Position numbers and translations under genes: made by a program
The notes under the pieces: model-generated
What the model was told of the DNA's origin: nothing
Database searches by the model: none
Seen by the model: the letters and a program-made list of their open reading frames with translations, nothing else
Shown: one piece after another, positions 34,195 to 59,219 of the stretch
Numbering within the stretch: the first letter of the stretch is position 1
How the letters are laid out: each line of letters starts with the position of its first letter
NCBI GenBank assembly: GCA_002102555.1
Contig: MCFL01000050.1
Span: 62,001 to 126,000, forward strand
Direction: 5' to 3'
DNA from: Catenaria anguillulae PL171
Taxonomy: Eukaryota > Blastocladiomycota > Blastocladiomycetes > Blastocladiales > Catenariaceae
Length of the DNA stretch: 64,000 nt

Positions 34195-36705
34195 TCACAC
34201 TCGGCCGGCATGGAACCCATCCACCCTGGTCTCATCCATCCATGGCGACTTTGCTGGGATCCGTTTTGCATTCACACCCAGCCCACGCTTTGCAAATGCC
34301 CTCCACATGACACACTTGAACTTGCCACCCGTCAGCACCTGCTGGCTTGGAACATTGCGTCGCGTGCATCCAAGAAGGTGGGACGGCACGGCTGCATCTT
34401 GAGGGCGTCCACGATAATCTGCATCATGAGCGTGTTGCCATGCTCCCTGCTGGCCGACAACCAATCACTCGTGAACCCGAGCTCGTCCACCAGCGACCAC
34501 AGCACCTCGAGCAACATGATGGCCCACACCTCGCCCTTGGCATGCACGCCCCAATACCCGTTTGCATTCATGGTGCTGTACGTTGACGGGTTCACGTCCA
34601 TGTCTGGCGAGTACGGGTACTTGCGAATGCCGACCTTGCCGCCATTTGCATACTTGCCCATTTCCCACGGGTGCGGCCACGACCGGTGCGCCATGGCACT
34701 TGTGCGCATGCGCAGCATGACGGACCAAACGTCGCCCCACCCTTCGCCCATGCCGCCGGCTTCGCCCCACCCAAGACACCCAGAGTTGAGGCGGCCGCCA
34801 GTCAGGCGCGTCGAGACGCCATGGCCAAATTCGTGAATGATGATCCCGTTCTAACATCAACGACGGATCTGATGGTCAGCACGGGTTGCCAACGCGGGAA
34901 CGCATGTAATTGGTGAAAAAAAAAAAGCCTGTGCATACCTCAAGATCCCCATCTCGGTACGGCGTCACGGTGTTCCACACATACATCCTCATCTTGCCAC
35001 TCCTCCCATCGGGCGGCGTCATGAAGTTTGCATTCGAGAACCCGCTCCCGTCCTGCGCATATGCCACCACCGCATCTGCACCCGCCCCGCCGCGGCCCAT
35101 GTTATGCTTCTGGAAGTTGCCTGCAGGCTCCGTGAACCCATACGCATAAAAGATATCGTGCAGGGCATTGTTTGTGTAAAACAGCTGGGTGATGGCCGCG
35201 TCCAGATATGTTGATGGGTTTTTCGAGAAATCAATCGGATAGTCAAATGTCTTGACGTGCTTGCCCGGGTGCGGCCGGTAATGCCGAGTCGGATCAGCGA
35301 CCGAATCGGATCCATAAGGATTGTCTTCGGCCACCACATTGTTGCCCGACGTGGATCCGCGCGCCACCCATCTCGTAGATGAGGATGCGGGCGTCGACGA
35401 CGACGAGTCCGAGTTTGAGGGAGAGGCAACGTGCGTCAGGAGCACGCGCGGGCCGTCGTCCGGGTCGTTGACGCCAATCGGGTACACACGGTATGTCGAT
35501 CCGACTGGAATCGCCTTGTCCTTGTCCTTGTTGCTTGTGCGATTGCGGCGGCGGCGGCGGCGACGACCACGGTGTGTGGATTCGGCTTGGGCGTCTTGGC
35601 TGTCGGCGGCCCAGTCAATCACAGACAATACCTCACCCGTTTGCGAGCACACGTGTGCGTGGACCCAGGATGTTGGCGATTCAATTTCGTAAGCGTAGAC
35701 GAGCGACAGGTTGGGCCGCGAGCTCGTGTTGGAAAGTGATGCAGCGTCCGATGTAGGCGTGTGCAAGTATGCGAGATAAACGGGAATGTCAGAAACGGAA
35801 ATGCCCGGAACGGCGGTGTACGAGCCAATGAATCCGCGTGGCTGTTGTTCGGTATTGGAGGAGGACAGGGCATCGTGCGACGAAAAGGATGCCAACAGGG
35901 TCGTGTCCAAGGTGGTGGCTGCCGAGCTCGAGTGGGAATCGTGCCGTTCGAGTTTGGTCAACAGCGATGCGAGCGCTTGATGGGGGGAAACAGCAGGGGT
36001 CGGAGTCGAACCAGTCGAAAAGTGGTGCTGCTGCTGCGAAGAGAAGAGCATGGAGGATAGACTTGATGCCAAGGACTTCTTGTTGGCATGGCCGGGCGTT
36101 GGGCCAGATTGGAGCGACGAGCCAAAAGATATGACACGGCCGAATCTGTGCATACAATGACGACAATGTGAGGCAACCAGCAGTGGGCAATAAACCGCGA
36201 GGCACACAAAACAAGCGTACTGGTCCAGGTTCACATTTGCATCTGCATTGGCCACCTCCAATCCATGCACAACCTGGCGAATGTATACATGGGTCACGCC
36301 ATTGTGTTCCGACTTGAGCGATGAAAGCACTGACAAGTTGGACGGTGCCACCTTTGTTTCCTTGGCAACAAAGTCGACGGCAATCCGCTCGGCATCCGAC
36401 ATTGTAATGACCGCGCCACGGTCACCCTCGGCAAACCTTGACGCAAATGCGTGCCGGCCAGTAGCATGGGGTACTTGATTGACGCGGGCCAGATGAGGCG
36501 TGGCCTTGAATGTCGGGTGAGGCAGGCCAGAAGGACCGAATGCGATGCGGCCGGAGCTAACGCGTTCACGCTGTTGCTGAGGGGAGAGGCCCGCAGCGCC
36601 AGGGTGAGAATCAACCTCGGTTGGGTCGCGGAAGGCGGCGGCAGGTGACGAGCCGAGGGCCAGCAGGGCGGAAAGGGCCGCCAGGAGGACGAGGAGGCGG
36701 GTCAT
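34195..36705 (-). CDS. Fungalysin (M36) metalloprotease, apparent C-terminal frameshift
   Basis: Secreted zinc endopeptidase made as a preproenzyme. The start at 36705 gives the signal peptide MTRLLVLLAALSALLALGSS. Exons are 36705-36221 (signal and FTP propeptide, VIRQVVHGLEVANADANV-like block), 36145-34939 (rest of the propeptide and start of the catalytic domain, NALHDIFYAYGFTEPAGNFQ) and 34850 onward. The zinc motif HEFGH is near residue 570, with the downstream Glu in GEGWGD. Near 34345 the reading TFLDARDAMFQAS runs into a stop (34332), while the next frame resumes the family C-terminus GGKFKCVMWRAFAKRGLGVN and ends at 34195. This implies a 1-nt insertion or 2-nt deletion, or an assembly error. 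An Arg-rich stretch in the propeptide region near 35540 is unusual. Confidence 0.9.
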
Positions 36706-37604
36706 CGCACAGATGACGAATGAAGAATATGGATGGGTGCGATGGGTTTGAAAACGAGCAGTGGGATGGAGGAAGATTCTACGACGAGGAAAGAGCGGGT
36801 GAGAGGCGAGCGAGACGGGGACAAACCGGTTGATTATGAGGAGAGCAGACAGCAGCAAGAGTGGCTGTGGGAATCAATGCATTCATGCAAGTCACAAGTC
36901 ATGCGTTCAAGCTGTCACGGCCTCCGTCGCGAGGCTGGAACGATGTGACCGCTTGGTCAGTTGACACGACTCGGCTGGTTCTTTGCTGAGGGAAAGAAAT
37001 TGCGATCCTCAGGCGAGCTCAACGGTGCCATTGACAACTGCAGCGAAAGATTATAACCACCTCCTCACACCTACGGCACCCAAGTGTGGGAACGCCTTCG
37101 TTTTCAATCCTTTCCTTGGCGTACGTCGTGATGAGTTGCGTGCTTTTGGATTGCGTGACACCACCCTATCGACAGTCATGGGCCATAATATGATATAAAT
37201 GCTTTGCACGGATGCTCTGATTGTTCGCAACAGCGGTGCTTGTGCATTCATCGCTTCAGCTCGGCCACCAAGAATCGCGTCCACTCCTGCTATTGAGCGT
37301 ACACAAACCCACTGCACAACACTGTCACATGCATGTTGGTCGCAAGCTTGAAACCACGTCTTGTCGCCCGATGCAAATGCAAACGGCCCACGTCCACAGC
37401 ATGTCCGGTGCTGCTCGTCATCGGGCTGTCGCCGATCTTTAAGCAGTCGGGGGCCTCCGATCCGCAGGCAAATCGCTCAACACACGCCAACCATGAAATG
37501 ATACATAAGTCGCGAGAGAGCACCGCGAGACGTCCCCACTGCCGCCTGTCGCCAGACCTATCTATGTCATAACATCCTCCTTTTCAATTCAACACGAGGC
37601 CATC
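36706..37604. promoter_or_regulatory. Divergent intergenic region, fungalysin / YbaK-like gene
   Basis: 899 bp between two divergent start codons; must contain both promoters. Short frames only; no motif assigned with confidence. Confidence 0.4.
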
Positions 37605-39071: not shown

Positions 39072-40840
39072 TTAATGCCAGTAATGCTCCCACAAGTAGC
39101 AAACGGCCAACAACGGCGGGCCTGCAAACATGGAGAACCAAAAGAATGCGTTGCCCGCGACGGGATGCTTGCGCGACCACGGCAGCCGACCAATCCAAAT
39201 GAGCGGCAGCTGGAACATTTGCAGCACAAACAAGTACATGCGAATGCGGCGCGCAACCATGATCATGGCGAGCTCGTGCAGGCACGAGGAGAAGAGGAAG
39301 GTCAAGAAGGTGGCACGGTGCTTGGAGACTTTGTATGTGTTGATGGATTCGAGATACTGCCGGCCGCCGAGTGAAGGTGAGCATTGTATGGGGAGACACA
39401 AGTCAATTGCAACACAATAAAAAATGAACGTACGACGTGACGGAGGAGGAACTCGTGGACAGGCTTGTTCCACTTGCGAGCGAATTGGTCAAACGTGCAA
39501 GAGTTCCACCAGTCGTCGTAGAAGCTCCGGTCCTGCAGAACACGGTCGAGTAGCGTGAGTGAGCGACCACGGTCACGGACAGATGAATGAATGGTAGCGG
39601 CACGTACGGCAAAACGAGTCAGCTCGGCAAACCCGTTGGCCACACACTCAAAGATGATGTAAAAAGTCATGAGGTAGCAGATCATGAACGGAAGGATGAG
39701 CCGGAGAAGACACCCAACAAAGGTCAAACGCTTGATTTCCAAGAGGACAGGGACAATGTAGTGCTCGACGGTGATGTACATGAGCATAATACTCCCTACA
39801 TACAACGGAAAGACGCTGCTGAATGAAAAACGCAAGCTGCGTGGACCACATCGACAATCAATCAACATACCGAAAGTCGCCAACACCTTCTCCCCAACAT
39901 ACATCCACCGAATGCGTGGCGTACGCGGATACTCAAGCTCGTACACCAATGTGGGCACCAACAAGTAGTCCACAAAGTTCAAAATACCAATATTCTCGGG
40001 ATACCGCACGTTGCCATGCGGCTTCAGCTCGCTCTCCAACTCGGCCATCTGCTCCTTGATGGCCTGCATCTCGGCCGCAACCGTTGCCGAACTGCCATCG
40101 TCGGCGCGCTCGAGAATCTTGAGCTCCTTCCTCAACCTGCGATCGACCCAGTAACGCTCGTTCAAGTCGCCATTGTACTGGTTGTACGAGTGGATTTTGA
40201 ACAGCATGGCAATCACGTGCAAAGTCAACGTGGCCGCCTGCACCCACGGCGGGTTGCGCTGCCAGATCCAGCCGAGCCACCCAAACAAGAAGGCCGTTTG
40301 CATGGAATGCTGCAAGACCAGCCGGACAAACCTGTGCCTGACGAAATGCCACTTTTGCAGGTAGGCCAAGAACAAGCCCGAAAACAAGGACCCGACAATC
40401 ATGAGGTCGTCGCGCACGAGATGCAAAAAGTTGCTCGACATGTGCCGAAACGTGCCAGTGCCAAAGAAGACGCCCGTGGTTTGCCAATTGTTGAGCAGCG
40501 TCAGGATCGTGTAAAAGGCCATGCCCATCCAAAAAAGCACAAAGAAGCCACGGAATTCGTCTTTGTCGCGCTCGAGACGCTCCAGGTCGAGCTTGGATGA
40601 GCGAGCGCGGAAGGGCGAGCCACGCCGGGAGTTGTTGGCACTACCCCGCGACGAAAGGCGCTGGTGGTGTTCGGTCACGGATCCGTTCGGCACGGCAGCA
40701 GTCACCGATGTGGATGCCGAGGTTTCGACGGAGGCGTCCGAGTCGGGAATGGCCGATGAGATTCGGGACGAAGGGTGGACATGCTCGTCGCTGGCCGCGA
40801 CGGCGGTGGCTGCCATGGCGGCAGTTGTTGCGGCGGACAT
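39072..40840 (-). CDS. MBOAT acyltransferase, sterol/diacylglycerol O-acyltransferase type
   Basis: ER multi-pass enzyme making steryl esters or triacylglycerol from acyl-CoA (ARE1/ARE2, SOAT and DGAT1 group). Four exons, 40840-39871, 39795-39608, 39532-39434 and 39356-39072, total 1542 nt (513 aa). The first 100 residues are Ser-rich and cytosolic. Hydrophobic segments begin at FFVLFWMGMAFYTILTLL. The hallmark motif FYDDWWN falls in exon 3, and the catalytic-His region FLFSSCLHELAMIMV falls in exon 4. A charged helical insert (RKELKILERADD ... EMQAIKEQMAELESELK) follows the third or fourth hydrophobic segment. Sterol and diacylglycerol specificity cannot be separated by these motifs. The start is the first ATG in frame; the frame extends further only from TTG. 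Confidence 0.9.
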
Positions 40841-41683
40841 GATGAGGGGGTGATGTCGAGATGATCCAGATCGCGGACCAAAGTGTGTCGAGGGGCTCTG
40901 TCGTGTTGGGGTGTGCAAGTATCAAGACCAACAATCAATACGGTATTTGCATGGAGCTTCATTTACATAACCATGGCATCCATCGTCATCCGTCGTCCGT
41001 CACCATTTGGCGGGGCATGGGCGGCGATGATGATGAGGAGGCATGGCGTGGGCGAACAACAGCCAAGACCCAGGCACTTGTGGCGATTCTGATCACTGCC
41101 GAGCCCTTCGATCACGTGCTGACACGGTCCTCTGCCTTCTGCGATTGTGATCAAACATCACTTGATGGACGACGGAAAGACGTTTTCAAGCACTCCGTCG
41201 ATAAGAAAAACATGCCGAGCAAACGTGCGATGTATAAGTAAAACCTCTCTCACTTTCTTCCGATCCAGAGAGATCCACAGCGAGTGGGGGCGAGCAGTGC
41301 GTGCTTGTGTTGCACGGCTGTATGTTCGCCACCACGCGTCAAGATGTCAGGTGCGAACAACTTCCACTGGCCCAAGTTCCTTGTGAATGATGTACGACGA
41401 CTTCTCGCACTCGTACCATCCACGAAAATCCATTAAAGGAAACTCAATGCAAACTTGATTTATCGATAGACCGCATGATTCAATTGACAACGTGAGCCGT
41501 CCAGGTCGCATCGGAGCTCCAAGTTGAACATCAATCCACCACAGCCACAATCGTCGTTTGGCCGGGCCGGTCGAAAAACGACACCAAGTACATGGAACAT
41601 GCACAAAATTTGAAAAAAATGAACAGTTCGCTCAATATTGCAGGCAAGGGAACGGTAGCCACCGGGCACCGCACCGACGAAAG
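40841..41683. promoter_or_regulatory. Divergent intergenic region, MBOAT / receptor PDE
   Basis: 843 bp between divergent genes. The start codon of the PDE gene probably lies at its right end (ATGs at 41592 and 41622), but I could not fix the first exon. Confidence 0.4.
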
Positions 41684-44600
41684 CCCGGGTTTCAATCATT
41701 CACGGCTCTTGTCGTCTTCATCCTCGTCGTTTCGGCCCATGGCCAACTGCAAATACTCATCTCCACGGGTCTTCGCGGCCAGCTTGTCGAAAGCAACGTA
41801 CGTGTGCGGTTCTTGCTTCTTTCCTTGTCGGGTGCCATTTTTTACAATGAATGTTTCACTTTCTCAGGGAGTGGGTGGAGCCGCACGGTTAAAAACGGCC
41901 ATCGACCGATACCCATCAGCTGTTCGAGTCGTTAGTCACGGCTTCGTTGGCAGCGGCCGCTATTTTGCACAATCAGGCGGCACGCTGGAAACTGACACCC
42001 TGAATGACCTTGGCATTCATGTCGCATCGATCGGCACTCGCGAGTAGCTTTGGTGCAGCCAAGTTATCGAACAGTACGATCCCAAAACGCTTGTAATTTG
42101 CTTGTCAGGCTCGTTTTTTACTGCATTGATGGTCCCTTGATTGCAGATGTCGTGGCCGAGCCACGTTTCCGATCGTCGCATCAACGTGGGGGTTTCCTTC
42201 TCGCTCGCAGCTGTCATCCCGAATCCAGCCATACACTGTTGTGGTTGCAAATGAAGTGGGATCCAATCGCCAGCTCAAAATTGGGATTCTCAGCGTAGGA
42301 ACTGCTGGTACTCATTCACGTATCACGCAAGCCCTCAATGACCTAAACTCACGTACAACCTGCCGTTCCGGGTGCCACAGCTCAATGCTCGCTCGCACCT
42401 TGCAGCGACTCTGGGGGCCCAATTGTTTCTCCACTTCCAATATCCCTTGCCATTACACGGCTCCAAAGCCTTGTTCATCAGCTCACTAACTCTGAAGCCG
42501 TCGACCTCATCATTACTCTCGGCACGTCATCATCCTACGCAAACGACTGGAGCATCGTCCGCGAAGTCCCCGGAATCAATCTGTTTATTAGTGGATCTCT
42601 CGACTCCGAACAAGTGCCTCAATTGCTCCAAACCCGTGGGACTCTCAACGTCCCAAATCAGTCTGGTCAGAACGTATCAATCGTTTGGGCTCCAGGCGAT
42701 GGAGGTGCGGATGTCAACCTCGTCCAAATCGAGTCCCCAACCTCGGCAACGGCCAGGACAGTCACCTCCACCAAGTTGTCATTGTCATGCCCTGACCCGA
42801 CTACCACCAACACATGCATCCAACCGCATTCCGCGACGGCGACCGCAGTGTCCACACGCGTGTCCAACTTTGAAGCATCCTCGCCACCCACCGTGTCAGT
42901 GACATCTACTCCAGCACTCCGTCAATCCGACTGCTCATCGTCAACGGAATGTGCCCTCGGTGCAGTCATCGCAAAGGCCCTTCGATCAAGCGGCGCAGAC
43001 TGCACTGCGTCCATGTTTAGTGTGCGCAACGCGACCCAGATGAATCCTGGGATTGATTCAAACACTGCCCTGTCATGGTCAAATCTTGCTTCGGTCGGCC
43101 AGGGATTTGGCCGTGTTGTTGTTGCGAACGCGACTGTTCGCGAGTTACTTGACTTTGCGTCTTGGCTGCAGATCGACGGGTGGGGCCAGGGCTCTGGATT
43201 CGCTGCACAGTTCAAACCAACTGGGTCGACGTCGGGGTTCACGATTGAGGGGCGGATTACAAATATGACAGTGTCGGGCACCCCGCTGCTGCCGTCAATA
43301 GCCGACGTGTCGTCACAAGTTGTGTCCGTTTGCACCACGTCAGCGACTTGGTCGGCGCTTCCGCCGACGCTGCGCAGCCGCATGATCCAACTCGGGGCAG
43401 ATCCCTGGAATATTGATGTCGTCGATGCGCTGTTCAAAACCTATTCGACAGGCTCCGCGCAAACATTCACGTTCACGCCGGCCAACATTTGGACCAGCAC
43501 CGCACTCACGGCCGCGGGCATTATTGGCGCATGCGCATTCAACTCGACGGCTCGACTGTCTTCAACGGCGTCCTCCTCTGCCGTGTCCATATCTGATTTA
43601 TGCGCTGGTCGTCGGCTTTTGACCGATTTCACCATTTTCGTTGAATCGGGTATCGCCGATGTAATATCTGCAACTGTGACTGTTCCAGTTGGCACTCTGT
43701 CCGCAACAAACCACACGTCGTTCGCTGTATCCGCCACTCCATGGAGCGACCCTGTGTCCGTTGTTCGCGGCCCGTTTTCGACAGCAAGCAACACATTCAC
43801 CGTGCCATTCTTGCCTGCATACATTCGCGTCGTGCGCAGTCAGGAAATCGCGCTGACAGGCGTGACACTCAGCATGACGGGCGTCGCCACCTGTCCCGCC
43901 GGATACGTCAAGGATACTGCGGCAAACAAGTGTACCCCGTGCCCCGCGGGCACGATGCGCAGCAACTCCATGTCGCAATGCACGCCATGTCCAGCTGGTA
44001 TGATGGCTGCCAATCCTGGATCCACCGAATGCTTTACCTGCCTCTCCGGGAGCTTCTCGTCCACTGAAGGCACGTCCCAGTGCACTGCCTGCGGTCCAAG
44101 CGCGTACCAATCCAAACCTGGCCAAAAATCGTGTCTCGCGTGCCCTTCACCTCGGATCCGTGTCTCTGGCTCAAGCTGCCTTTGCCCGCTCGAAGATCAA
44201 GTGTATGACGCGGGAGCCAACGCATGTGTTTCGGCCGGTCTGATCAACTCCATTACGCTTTCTTCAATCCTGCTCACGGCCGCTGCCGCAGCACTCATCC
44301 TCGGCGCCGTCCTGTGGGTGTGGGTGTGGACCAAACGGTCGGGGAAGCCCGCAAAGGCTCGCAAGCGGTCCACGTCTGGAGCAACAACGGCCAACCAGCT
44401 GCAGTCGATTGCCGTTACATCCATGCTGCAAAGCGAAGACTCGGGAGGCGACGCACCCATCAAGCGCGCAATCGATACGCTGCAAATGCTCAAGGGCGCC
44501 ACCGCGAGCGTGCGGCTTAAGAAGCACATTGACAATGTGATTGCCATTTTGGTGTCGGGGGACATGTTTGATGTGCGCCAGATTGAGGGCGAAGATTTGG

Positions 44601-46924
44601 ATGACGATGTCAAGGATTGGATTGCGACGACCGTGATTGGCAAGCGCACGTCGGCGACGCCAACGCTGGATACGAGGCAGTCGGCAACAATTGCCAGTGC
44701 TCGACTGGGAACCGTGGGCCGTGGGACGCGCGCAGCGACCGACATGCCCACGGCGGGCTTTGACGGGCAGCAGCAACCAGCGTTAACGCCCGATGCAATT
44801 CCGTCCATCGAGTACATTGGTCGCGACGTGTTCAGAATCGGCGACCCGCATCTTGCACAGATTCGCGACATGCTCGAACACAGCACGCAGTGGGACTTTG
44901 ACATCTTTGCATTCAACGATGCAACCAACGGGCACCCACTCCTCTTTTTGTCGTACTACATGATCAAGAAGCTCAACTTGCTCGAGGCCGCAAAGGTTGA
45001 GGAGATTGTCTTGTTGCAATACTTGGACGAGGTCGAGTTGACATATCAAACAAACCCATATCACAATGCGATCCATGCTGCAGACATGACCCAGGCCATG
45101 TGGGTGTTTCTCAGCGATGAGCGGATCCGCGCGGCGTGTTCCCCGCTCGAGCTGTTTGCCATCATTATTGCTTGTTGCATTCACGATGTGGACCATCCCG
45201 GTGTGACCAACGCATTCATTGTCAAGTCTCGCCACCCGCTCGCATTGCTCTATTCAGACACATCGGTGCTCGAGTTTCACCATGCGGCAACTGGGATCAC
45301 AATTGCAGAGCGACGCAAGCTGTTCCAACCGCTGGGCAGCCAGTACGACGACCTGCGCAAGCTCATTGTGGAACTGGTCATGGCCACCGACATGGCCAAG
45401 CACTTTGAATTTCTCAACAAGTTCAAGTCACAAATGCTGGCCGCACAGGGCGTCGATTCCAATTCCGAGTCGCTGCGCTTGGACAAACCAGAGACGAAGT
45501 TGCTCACGCTCATGACGGCCATGAAGTGTGCCGACTTGAACAACCCAACACGACCGAGGCATGTTTCGTTTGAGTGGACGCAGCGCATTATGGAAGAGTT
45601 TTATCAGCAAGGCGACCAGGAACGAGCTCTTCACTTGCCTATTTCAAAGTTTATGGATCGAAATAGCCAAGCGGATGAGAATGTGGCAAAGTGTCAGGTA
45701 CGACTTTGCTTTCATTTGGCCCTTGGCAGTCGTGTCTGGGCTCACCACGATAGCCTTCTTTGACAGACTTCGTTCATCGATGTGATTGTTGGCCCACTGT
45801 ACCAAGCCTGGTCGACGTACCTCAAATCGCCCGTGACCCACGTCATCCAAGCTAACATTCACGCCAACCGGTCATTTTGGGCACAAACATCCAAATCCAA
45901 AGACAACCTCGTCGCCGCTGGGGGCTCCAACAATGGCACAAACGGCCCGTCTCCCACATCTCCATCTGCCAGAAACAAGGCACATCCGTTTCGAAAGGAG
46001 CGATCGGCGAGTTTTGCCGCAGGAACGAACGGATCTGGCTCGTTCAGCGTCATGAACGGTGCCAACCGGCGCGGCGGGCCCAGCGTCGTTCGCCTGAACG
46101 CTCCAGTCGCAAAACCCATCAGCGGGTCTCCGTCCAAGAACGGCAGCTCGTCGACCGTGGCCGCATCGTCGGTTGCCTCGAGCAACGGGTCACTTTCGGT
46201 GCGACATCCCACGAGCGTCATGTCCACCACGCAACGCATGAGGGCGTTGAGCGAATACGTTTCGTCGCGAGGATCGGTCAGTGGAATTAACACGCTTGGG
46301 TCGAGTCCGTTGAGTTCTGAGCTTCAGCCGTCACCATTGACACGCATGGGAACCGATGTAACAAAAGAGCGGTCGACACCTGAAAGTGCAGACAGTATCA
46401 CTGTCCCCGTACCGCCTGTGGTAGGCACCTCGAGCGGCGCCATCACGGGCAGCCTGTCGCTGGCCATCACGGGCATGTCGAGTGCCATGCCAACACCATC
46501 CGTGTCCAACAATGGCACATTACCCGTGATTCCTGACGATGCATCCAGCACCGCGTCCAGCGACGACGCAGCCCTGTCGCGGCGCTCAAGCTTTTCTTCG
46601 GCGGTGGCCACGGCCAAACCAGGAGGCGTTGGCATCATGTCTGCGCCGGTTCCCGCCCCGGGTTTGGGGCGGCGCGGGTCAGCGTCGTTGCAAGGGTTGA
46701 AGCAGTTGCCGTTGCCGAGCGCGGGCGGACCCAACATTAACGTGCCAACGTACATGATTCTCGAGGAGGAGTCGGATGAGGATGGGATCAATGGTGCGGA
46801 CGGTGGTGGCAAGCCGCCGCCGGCGGCCCCCGGCAGTCTTTCTTCGCCGACGCTGCCGAACCAGTTGGGAAGTATAGGACGGTCCAGGGTCGGGTCAAGA
46901 GTCGATCCTAAAATGCAGCCATGA
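41684..46924 (+). CDS. Receptor-like cyclic-nucleotide phosphodiesterase with 5'-nucleotidase-like ectodomain
   Basis: Type I membrane protein. Exon blocks: up to 41797 (signal sequence FTALVVFILVVSAHGQLQIL), 41868-42043, 42147 to about 42371, about 42406-45697 and 45767-46924. The ectodomain follows the UshA/5'-nucleotidase order: a metallophosphoesterase-like half (GVGGAARLKTAIDRYPSAVR, VPGINLFISGS), then a C-terminal nucleotidase domain (FGRVVVANATVRELLDFASW). Every metal-ligand motif I can place is altered. Next come a Cys-rich repeat region (CPAGTMRSNSMSQCTPCPAG, 43880-44210) and one TM helix (SILLTAAAAALILGAVLWVW, about 44265-44325). The cytoplasmic class I PDE domain has YHNAIHAADMTQ, IHDVDHPGVTNAF, MKCADLNNPTRP and, across the last intron, the invariant Gln and SFIDVIVGPLYQAW. 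A Ser-rich tail of about 350 residues ends at 46924. The first exon and the 42340-42410 join are unresolved. Confidence 0.87.
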
Positions 46925-57084: not shown

Positions 57085-59219
57085 CTAATCCTTCTTGTCA
57101 GTGCCCATCCTGGCCCTCCGCCGCCTCTTACTCGATCCACCCCCATTCTGCATCCGCTTGGTCAATCCCCGCAAACTCTTGCTTGCCAACTCTTCCCTAC
57201 TCAACGGCCGATCCTCATCCGCATCCTCATCCGAATCCTCATTGTCACCTGTATTCGGCGCAACGATCTGCACCACGACCGCTGTGGGGCCGCGAAGATG
57301 TGCATTTCCACCTGCCGGTGCGCCCGCCGACCCGGCGCCGCCGCCATTTGCATCCCTGCCCTCGGCCGATGTCGGCGCGGCAGATCCGGGCGCGCTTCCA
57401 CTTGACCCGTTTCCATTTGCGCCAGCTGGGGCATTGGGCCCCGTGGGACTGGCTGACGCGAGCTTGGCGCGCGGATTGGTGGCAATTTGGTGCAGAATCA
57501 AAAGGTCATTGACGCGTTCTTCGATGCTGGCCAGGTGCGACAGCAGCGCGTCGGCGGTCGAGGCGCCAGCGGGCAGTTTGATGTCGGCCATGATGAACGG
57601 GTTGGTCGTAATGGCCGACGAGGCTGCGGGTTGCTGTGGCGAGGTGGGCGACGAAACGGCCGTGGAAGAAGCCGATGGACCAATGTTGGATGACGACGAG
57701 GCGGCTGGAGGGCCAGTCACGGCCGCAGCAGCTGCTGCTGCGGCGGCGGCTTCTGCGTCGTCAGCCGCCACAGGGGTCGTGGACGTGACTGTGACGTTAC
57801 TGGACCGGAACGCGTCAACGAGCTTGAGGACATTTTCGTACAGGCCCGTGACCATGGCCTGGATCTCGTCATTGTGCGCCTGCAATTGCATGCTCTTGTC
57901 CCTCGCATCTTGCAAATGCTTTTCCAACACTCGCAGACGTTTGTTGCGATTGACATCTGCGCGCTTGTTTTCGTCGTCCATGCCGTCGATTTGCCGCTGG
58001 ATCCGCACAAGCTCCTCGCCAATCTTTTCCACCTCGTTGTTGACCTGGTTGACATAGTTGAAGAGCGAAAAGTTTTGCTCTTCCACGTCCTTGAACCGCT
58101 GCACGAGCTCGTCGAGCGATTTCACGCCCGTGACTTCTTGGATGTGATTGAGCACCTTTTCGTACGAGGCCACCGACACGTTGAGCACGTCTTGCGAGGA
58201 CGACGAGGCTTTCGACAAGCCCGCACCAGGGGCGCCAGCCGCGGCACCTGCGCCGCCCTTGGGCTGTAAGCGGCCGGGCGAGTTGGAGGGCGAGATGGAC
58301 GAGGCGGTTGGGTCGAGCCCGGCACTGCCCAGAAGAAGTGCGCCTGCGTGACGGTCGGCTGCCTTGGTCGCAAGGAAATTGCGCAGTTTGCGGTCTTGCT
58401 CGAGCGTGCGGTCGAGTTCCTTGATTTCTTGAATGTATGCTTGGTATTCCTTTTCGGCTTTTTCCGACAGGATGAGGATTTTGGCTTGTGCTTCATCGCT
58501 GTAGTTGTGCCGAGTTGAAGCATGTCAAGTAAGACATCCAATAGTGGAAAGAACAGGTGGCATGTGGCGTACCGTGCTTCATAGGCTGCATTGGAACTCT
58601 CAATGATCTCGGCCATGGCCTTCTTTTGCTCGGTCAACTCACGCTCAAACTTTGTGTACACGGTATCAAACACCAACCGCTCCCTCCTCAAGTTGTCAAT
58701 CAATCCCCTGAATCGCTTGTTGTTGGCGAGCGCCCGGTTGTACTTGACGAGCGCCTGGTCCAGCCTGTTTTCTAGAATGCGAATCTGCTTTTCAATGGCA
58801 AGCGAATTGACCATGGCCGCATTCACGCCGCCCATTTGCTGTCGCTGCTTGGCCATGGCCTTATGAATCTCGTCCATTTCCTTGTCGAGCTCGCCAATAT
58901 GCTCGGCAGCCGTCTTCATGCGCCGCTGATGCAAATCTGCGCGCTGGTGCAAGATCTCGGCCTTTTCGGACCCTGTCCCGTTGCGTTTGGTGTCTTCAAT
59001 GCGCCGCTGGGCTAGGGCCAGTTCTTGCAGCAAGTACTCGTTGTCACGGCGGAGTTTGTCGATGGCTGACCGCTGCTTTTTGATGAGCTGGCGGGCTTCT
59101 TCAGCATAGGATTTGCGCTCGGATTCCATGACGCGGAAGGTCCGCTGCAGTTTGGAGTATTCGAGCTCGACGGCACCGTCGTTGGCTTCGCCCGACGTGA
59201 CAGATTGCGCGCGGCTCAT
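57085..59219 (-). CDS. Outer dynein arm docking complex coiled-coil protein (ODA1/CCDC114/CCDC63 type)
   Basis: Axonemal protein of the complex that seats outer dynein arms on doublet microtubules. Exons 59219-58573 and 58498-57085 total 2061 nt (686 aa; CCDC114 and ODA1 are about 650-750). Coiled coil predominates: LEYSKLQRTFRVMESERKSY near residue 20 is the family signature, followed by EARQLIKKQRSAIDKLRRDN, ENRLDQALVKYNRALANNKR, DNLRRERLVFDTVYTKFERE and, after the intron, EVEKIGEELVRIQRQIDGMD. A low-complexity Ala/Gly/Ser tail ends in a basic cluster (KRRRRARMGTDKKD). The start is the first in-frame ATG (the upstream extension begins at TTG). With DNAAF3 it indicates a motile flagellated stage. 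Confidence 0.88.

Follow-up and report, generated by a model that had tools for sequence, protein, structure and literature searches.

Gene Structure at the Locus

The stretch of DNA analyzed here (the window; 64,000 nucleotides, G000:C404:62001-126000) comes from Catenaria anguillulae PL171, a blastocladiomycete whose genome was searched as 41.07 Mb in 457 contigs. On its forward strand, a gene at about 41650-46924 runs from a hydrophobic leader to a class I cyclic-nucleotide phosphodiesterase (PDE) domain. Its 1656-residue open frame, ending at 46924, is joined through four GT-AG introns of 70, 103, 61 and 69 nt and has the following features:

41650-41797, forward: exon 1, leader FTALVVFILVVSAHG, then ISTGLRG in the first ectodomain strand; 5' end uncertain
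41741-42872, forward: pseudo-metallophosphatase (N) domain, introns included; 0/7 catalytic-site residues
41868-42043, forward: exon 2, with GVGGAARLKTAID, SHGFVGSG and GTRE; probable 3' extension to about 42092
42044-42146, forward: intron 2 as modelled, 103 nt; the alternative is about 49 coding nt, then an intron at 42093-42146
42147-42319, forward: exon 3, ATFPIVASTW ... KIGILSVGT, nucleotidase-like strands
42381-45697, forward: exon 4, 3317 nt in a single open frame, from the remainder of the N domain through the invariant Gln of the PDE
42875-43624, forward: 5'-nucleotidase C-domain-like region, similarity weaker than in the N domain
43625-43885, forward: pre-stalk region without Pfam match, judged beta-rich only by eye; common to a paralog and to Blastocladiella emersonii
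43901-44155, forward: Cys-rich stalk with two Pfam Ephrin_rec_like matches (43901-44041 and 44048-44155)
44240-44326, forward: single transmembrane (TM) helix, hydropathy 2.34
44330-44884, forward: juxtamembrane linker with segment DAPIKRAIDTLQMLK...DDDVKDWIATTVIGKR
45059-45829, forward: Pfam PDEase_I match, split by intron 4
45698-45766, forward: intron 4, 69 nt, splitting CQ from TSFID
45767-46924, forward: exon 5, end of the PDE and long cytoplasmic tail to the stop codon, Ser/Gly/Pro-rich by eye

An earlier account made from the letters alone (the sequence-only reading) had proposed that one gene joins a leader, a nucleotidase-order ectodomain, a Cys-rich region, a TM helix and a class I PDE. 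This is borne out by exon 4, which holds the rest of the N domain, the C domain, the pre-stalk region, the stalk, the TM helix, the linker and the PDE up to its invariant Gln, so that the protein from residue ~166 to that Gln is encoded by one exon. Because the middle of the ectodomain and the PDE are joined in one 3.3 kb exon, they are not two genes. A second copy of the gene on contig C9 (L017) is 98% identical, with 0 indels in exon 4 and one 3-base indel in exon 5, and in both copies the frame is uninterrupted from the nucleotidase C domain into the PDE.

The two copies differ around intron 2. At 42043-42153 the C9 copy has six additional single bases over a span of about 110 bp (four fall in intron 2, one in exon 3 and one at the junction), and the splice of the window applied to it gives a frameshift. 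The B. emersonii protein reads GTRELGLGVSRLASNVV in this region and C9 reads GTREVALGAAKLSNSTI. By this comparison, the modelled intron 2 probably opens with ~49 coding nt, and the assembly (or an allele) is faulty there. The six indels likely reflect a damaged allele or misassembly of at least one of the copies. The residues GTRE lie upstream of the doubtful splice and are unaffected; of the motif GTREC quoted in the sequence-only reading, GTRE is firm and the final C depends on the splice chosen. Its other motifs (ISTGLRG, SHGFVGSG, SGSLDSE, HNAIH, HDVDHPG and the Gln before SFID) were all found where it had placed them.

The Stalk, the Membrane Helix and the Phosphodiesterase

Cys-rich sequence begins at 43886, and the stalk matches Ephrin_rec_like with a Pfam E-value of 3.7e-7. 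Ahead of the PDE there is one TM helix besides the leader, and no seven- or eight-TM rhodopsin domain. The domain order with one TM helix may be that of a single-pass receptor enzyme, with a putative leader that has no located Met and a predicted topology. In a MAFFT alignment judged by eye, the linker segment resembles the linkers of chytrid PDEs with an ANF-receptor ectodomain.

The PDE matches PDEase_I (PF00233) with an E-value of 1.2e-75 (254.8 bits against a cut-off of 24.8). Class I PDEs share the motifs HNxxH, HDxDHPG, (C)ADxxNP and EFxxQGD and an invariant Gln before FID. All five are present here, with HNAIH at 45062, HDVDHPG at 45182 and CQ|TSFID across intron 4, so the PDE half does keep its family residues, as had been proposed; the patterns are strict, since the Borealophlyctis row and the PDE8B row each fail one of them. 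In a PDB search with this domain, all 60 among the matches listed were class I PDEs, with PDE8A and PDE4D near the top. The choice of substrate between cyclic AMP (cAMP) and cyclic GMP (cGMP) allows no confident reading from the sequence.

Nucleotidase Ancestry of the Ectodomain

A Pfam scan of the ectodomain gave no nucleotidase family at E-values up to 10. A hidden Markov model (HMM) was built from six nucleotidases (2z1a, CD73, two enzymes of the same genome and two database proteins). The ectodomain scored 42.4 bits with it (N part alone 27.3, C part alone 12.1), while its reversed sequence scored -1.6 and the best shuffle 5.8 bits (439 listed of 1000 searched). Without the two own-genome rows, the scores were 24.0 bits for the whole, 16.7 for the N part and 3.8 for the C part, with 3.7 for the best shuffle listed. 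In hhalign, the protein together with that of B. emersonii aligned to nucleotidases of other organisms with a probability of 96.1% (91.5% for our protein alone, 92.9% for the N domain alone and 66.3% for the C domain alone), compared with 0.1% for each of five shuffles and 0.3% for the reversed pair. Pfam also sees 5_nucleotid_C in the B. emersonii protein, under the cut-off (17.9 vs. 23.6 bits), and the C-domain-like region retains the Cys pair that flanks R354 of CD73. Judged by these profiles, the ectodomain is related, in decayed form, to CD73 and UshA; the relation is real but below the reach of Pfam and is carried mainly by the N domain. The HMM check suggested in the sequence-only reading thus gave a relation to nucleotidases at the level of profiles and none in Pfam.

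A PDB search with the ectodomain returned three matches only, which were judged to be chance. Protein search with the ectodomain region gave 0/7999 scored candidates at E ≤ 10; since orthologs were found by searching with the PDE region, this miss is due to word matching and the candidate limit.

Loss of the Catalytic Site and of the Nucleotide Pocket

CD73, UshA and the Thermus 5'-nucleotidase are metal-dependent enzymes. We take the metal ligands of CD73 to be D36, H38, D85, N117, H220 and H243 and the catalytic His to be H118. None of these seven catalytic-site residues is found in our protein (0/7): where the family has D-x-H-G it reads ISTGLRG (41759), where the family has GD-x2-GG it reads SHGFVGSG (41934) and where the family has GNHE it reads GTRE (42033), with SGSLDSE at 42590. 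The losses are common to B. emersonii, in which 0/5 residues are retained where the model has sequence, and HGF(V/I)GSG and GTRE stand at the old active site in both proteins. The claim that the ectodomain has lost the motifs for catalytic metals is thereby confirmed.

For the nucleotide pocket, the positions in CD73 are presumably R354, N390, R395, F417 and F500. Our protein has S, N (alignment-dependent), N, G and W at these positions and B. emersonii has S, P, T, A and W, while the reference enzymes NT29 and NT26 have N, N, R, F, I and R, N, R, F, M, respectively. R354 and F500 vary among intact enzymes, so the weight rests on R395 and F417, which all five of the reference rows shown retain and both PDE-linked proteins have lost. 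On this alignment, the PDE-linked proteins are judged to have lost most of the pocket, and a nucleotide is thus not favored as the thing sensed above some other ligand or a partner protein.

Orthologs, Phylogeny and Selection

A protein search with the PDE region (E ≤ 1e-10, 7990 candidates scored) returned 72 proteins. Ephrin_rec_like was found in four of them (B. emersonii and three Allomyces proteins) and ANF_receptor in six, all from Chytridiomycota. The protein of B. emersonii ATCC 22665 (P0004), named only 3',5'-cyclic-nucleotide phosphodiesterase, has the same pseudo-nucleotidase ectodomain, Cys-rich stalk, TM helix, linker and PDE in the same order and with the same lost motifs; it differs in that its database model is without the leader and the first ectodomain strand. 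The domain order that the sequence-only reading had wished to see sought in Blastocladiomycota and chytrid proteins was therefore found in this species. Identity to it is 114/268 in the N domain and 87/231 in the C domain (38-43%), 27/78 in the pre-stalk region, 50/117 in the stalk, 11/30 in the TM helix, 91/177 in the linker, 256/330 (78%) in the PDE and 94/298 in the tail. The identity of the ectodomain argues, at the level of sequence, that it has been constrained over a long time scale.

A tree was made from 33 hand-chosen PDE domains out of 73 extracted from 76 sequences (34 had been picked, P0014 not being among the 73; midpoint root, with weak deep branches). Our protein groups with B. 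emersonii (support 96/81), then with Allomyces (100/97) and Sorochytrium (100/100). The enclosing PDE clade of 18 rows (98/96) consists of 16 named rows, all zoosporic fungi, and two unnamed ones, and also holds ANF-receptor PDEs and GAF-domain PDEs. Since the inner order of the clade is unresolved, gain, loss and swap of ectodomains are indistinguishable.

Between the window copy and the C9 copy, the ratio of nonsynonymous to synonymous substitution rates (dN/dS) is 0.018 for the PDE in exon 4 (one change at 693 nonsynonymous sites vs. 14 at 189 synonymous sites, P = 4e-9), 0 for the TM helix and linker (P = 7e-5), 0.11 for the pre-stalk and Cys-rich regions (P = 0.004) and 0.17 for the tail (P = 1e-6). 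These parts are under purifying selection between the copies. The end of the PDE in exon 5 gave 0.16 (1 vs. 2 changes, with no P-value), and exons 1-3, with a single change altogether, are uninformative.

A Paralog Without a Phosphodiesterase

A genome scan for Ephrin_rec_like (E ≤ 0.001, 12 candidates scored, counts being lower bounds) found at least six matches, with two genes each on two contigs: the gene described above (C404/C9) and a paralog (C92/C246), for which no PDEase_I match was listed on either contig. The paralog (L033:402-4222, minus strand, 1218-residue model; second copy L036) has a leader, a nucleotidase-like region, 5_nucleotid_C (Pfam E 1.3e-23), the stalk and a TM helix. 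It matches our protein with an E-value of 1.4e-11 and 30% identity from the late C domain to the stalk, and weakly in the N domain (E 0.22); a full-length MAFFT alignment of the two is forced and not usable as a test. A protein search with the paralog returned two nucleotidase-type proteins. Its cytoplasmic region has additional hydrophobic stretches and resembles nothing convincingly in Pfam or the PDB, where its one match (E 0.037) was judged to be chance.

The paralog also has none of the seven catalytic-site residues (one is a gap), reading TNSING, HISNAV, ATRD and LSYDID. Its pocket positions, R, N, R, F and Y, are retained, with Y for F500. As (G/A)TR(E/D) replaces GNHE in both proteins, loss of the metal site may predate their split. 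The reading as a nucleotide sensor would fit the paralog better than the PDE protein, and the paralog is a candidate nucleotide receptor.

Other Phosphodiesterases and Neighboring Genes

Among the 72 PDE relatives, 14 carry Ion_trans (PF00520) and are oomycete proteins where named (P0039-P0043, P0045-P0047, P0050-P0053, P0065 and P0067); they are apparently voltage-sensor or channel-type domains fused to a PDE. Three other PDEs of Blastocladiomycota (L018, P0027 (BCR44DRAFT_26328) and P0028) have several hydrophobic stretches ahead of the catalytic domain. Sorochytrium P0008 shows a Ras-family domain ahead of the TM helix and PDE, either as a true fusion protein or, possibly, by fusion of gene models. 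Of the chytrid proteins, P0012 has one TM helix and no recognised ectodomain, and the ANF-receptor PDE P0024 has a second hydrophobic stretch near the N end. Three further genes in the window are:

39305-40921, reverse: MBOAT acyltransferase gene by Pfam, divergent from the PDE gene (an assignment as bestrophin was rejected, as Pfam gives MBOAT)
57088-58524, reverse: match to the ODAD1 central coiled coil (outer dynein arm docking), likely a flagellar gene
34879-36873, reverse: match to M36 fungalysin metallopeptidase

Discussion

We interpret the gene as encoding a single-pass, receptor-type cyclic-nucleotide PDE, in which a dead 5'-nucleotidase-type ectodomain on a Cys-rich stalk would bind a ligand or partner and change cAMP/cGMP breakdown, and put the probability of this at roughly 0.6. 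Most likely, the ectodomain hydrolyzes no nucleotide and serves to bind a ligand or a partner protein outside the cell. The stalk and the one TM helix would transmit the binding, and the linker would couple the signal to a class I PDE that is predicted to be active, probably in a dimer. The response may change the breakdown of cAMP and/or cGMP at the plasma membrane, plausibly in zoospores.

Several observations weigh against this interpretation. Exon 1 contains no in-frame ATG and an upstream exon is required, for which a putative start is the ATG at 41475 with an intron at 41492-41643, one of 20 enumerated upstream solutions. Intron 2 is inconsistent between the copies, and with the ~49 nt taken as coding neither assembled copy stays open throughout. 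With the own-genome rows removed, the score of the C part by itself is on a par with that of the best shuffle. No usable AlphaFold2 model was obtained for the exon-4 ectodomain with three companions (predicted local distance difference test, pLDDT, 34.3; predicted template modelling score, pTM, 0.22), which we count neither way. The models of the three Allomyces proteins start within the Cys-rich stalk, and a model from Sorochytrium, also in Blastocladiomycota, has the TM helix and PDE without ectodomain and stalk, so that the join of ectodomain and PDE is seen in two genera only. GAF-domain PDEs stand in the same clade with the order of its three branches unresolved, and a common receptor ancestor does not follow. 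Finally, the nucleotidase part of exon 4 is indistinguishable from neutral between the copies (dN/dS = 0.58, P = 0.22, 13 vs. 8 changes).

This last result, the loss of the catalytic and most pocket residues and the Allomyces models without an ectodomain would also suit a structural or adhesive module, which would place a constitutively active PDE by dimerization or by anchoring in the cell wall or flagellar membrane and sense no ligand. We consider this rather unlikely, given the 38-43% identity to B. emersonii across both nucleotidase-like domains, the conserved HGFxGSG and GTRE blocks at the old active site and the chytrid PDEs of the same clade, which have a known type of ligand-binding domain at the corresponding position. 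Sensing of nucleotides or nucleosides outside the cell, by way of the former substrate pocket, is improbable for this ectodomain: R395, F417 and R354 are lost in both PDE-linked proteins, even if descent from the nucleotidase family, the Trp that both have at the F500 position, the variation of two of the five pocket positions in intact enzymes as well and the pocket kept by the paralog despite its 0/7 catalytic-site residues all point that way. The sequence-only reading had seen a pseudo-enzyme that senses a nucleotide, nucleoside or other ligand; the lost metal site agrees with its pseudo-enzyme, and nucleotide or nucleoside sensing does not hold as the simplest form of it.

Decay of the gene, as a pseudogene or broken allele, might be suspected because the region of intron 2, read differently in the two copies, has indels and a TAG in frame and because exon 1 has no ATG. 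Such decay is highly improbable in view of the dN/dS of 0.018 in the PDE, the absence of indels in the 3317 nt of exon 4 and the conserved ortholog. The idea that two neighboring genes, or an assembly fusion, were taken for one is scarcely credible, as one frame leads from the nucleotidase C domain to the PDE in both copies and the parts follow one another in this order in B. emersonii too; it draws on the unsettled start and intron 2 and on Allomyces models that begin at the Cys-rich region.

The receptor-type PDE preferred here has parts of known kinds. PDE8 and PDE4 have a like catalytic domain and motifs and, unlike our protein, no TM helix ahead of it (rows P0031-P0033, P0035, P0036, P0038 and P0049). 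CD73, UshA and the Thermus enzyme (4h2b, 1ush and 2z1a) are related to the ectodomain by profile, from which it differs in its catalytic site. Six PDEs from Chytridiomycota (P0010, P0018, P0020, P0021, P0022 and P0024) likewise have an ectodomain, a TM helix, a resembling linker and a PDE of the same clade, and differ in having an ANF_receptor ectodomain and no match to the Cys-rich stalk. The rhodopsin PDE of choanoflagellates (Rh-PDE) is similar in that a helical linker connects its membrane sensor to the PDE (PMC7644710, PMC12004702); this linker has been modelled as crossing in a HAMP-like four-helix coil in the dimer (PMC7644710). It differs in that an eight-TM rhodopsin senses light, and the available text of these papers describes no extracellular ligand domain. 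By analogy, and as far as that text goes, Rh-PDE would be a direct precedent for a membrane sensor that drives a class I PDE via a linker.

A keyword search of the open-licence literature found no description of a receptor-type PDE with such an ectodomain, in line with the view of the sequence-only reading that none had been described; orthologous proteins already have database entries, annotated as hypothetical or simply as PDEs. The combination of these parts, and its parallel with the ANF-receptor PDEs of another phylum, appears to be new. More tentatively, at slightly less than even odds, zoosporic fungi may possess a class of receptor PDEs, with one PDE clade, a TM helix and a similar linker under differing ectodomains (dead 5'-nucleotidase in Blastocladiomycota, ANF-receptor-type in Chytridiomycota), through which an outside ligand would directly change cyclic-nucleotide breakdown, and with the PDE-less paralog as a non-hydrolyzing nucleotide receptor.

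Control of cyclic nucleotides is usually described as synthesis at the surface and breakdown inside. Receptor guanylyl cyclases combine an extracellular domain and one TM helix with an intracellular enzyme that makes cGMP, whereas the protein described here is predicted to destroy the cyclic nucleotide. B. emersonii reportedly has independent cAMP and cGMP phosphodiesterases, as Vale et al. are said to have found in 1975 (cited in PMC4046227). If our interpretation is true, the protein would show clearly how the fold of an enzyme can be turned into an ectodomain and would offer a one-protein route from an outside signal to lower cAMP/cGMP, the mirror image of the receptor guanylyl cyclases.

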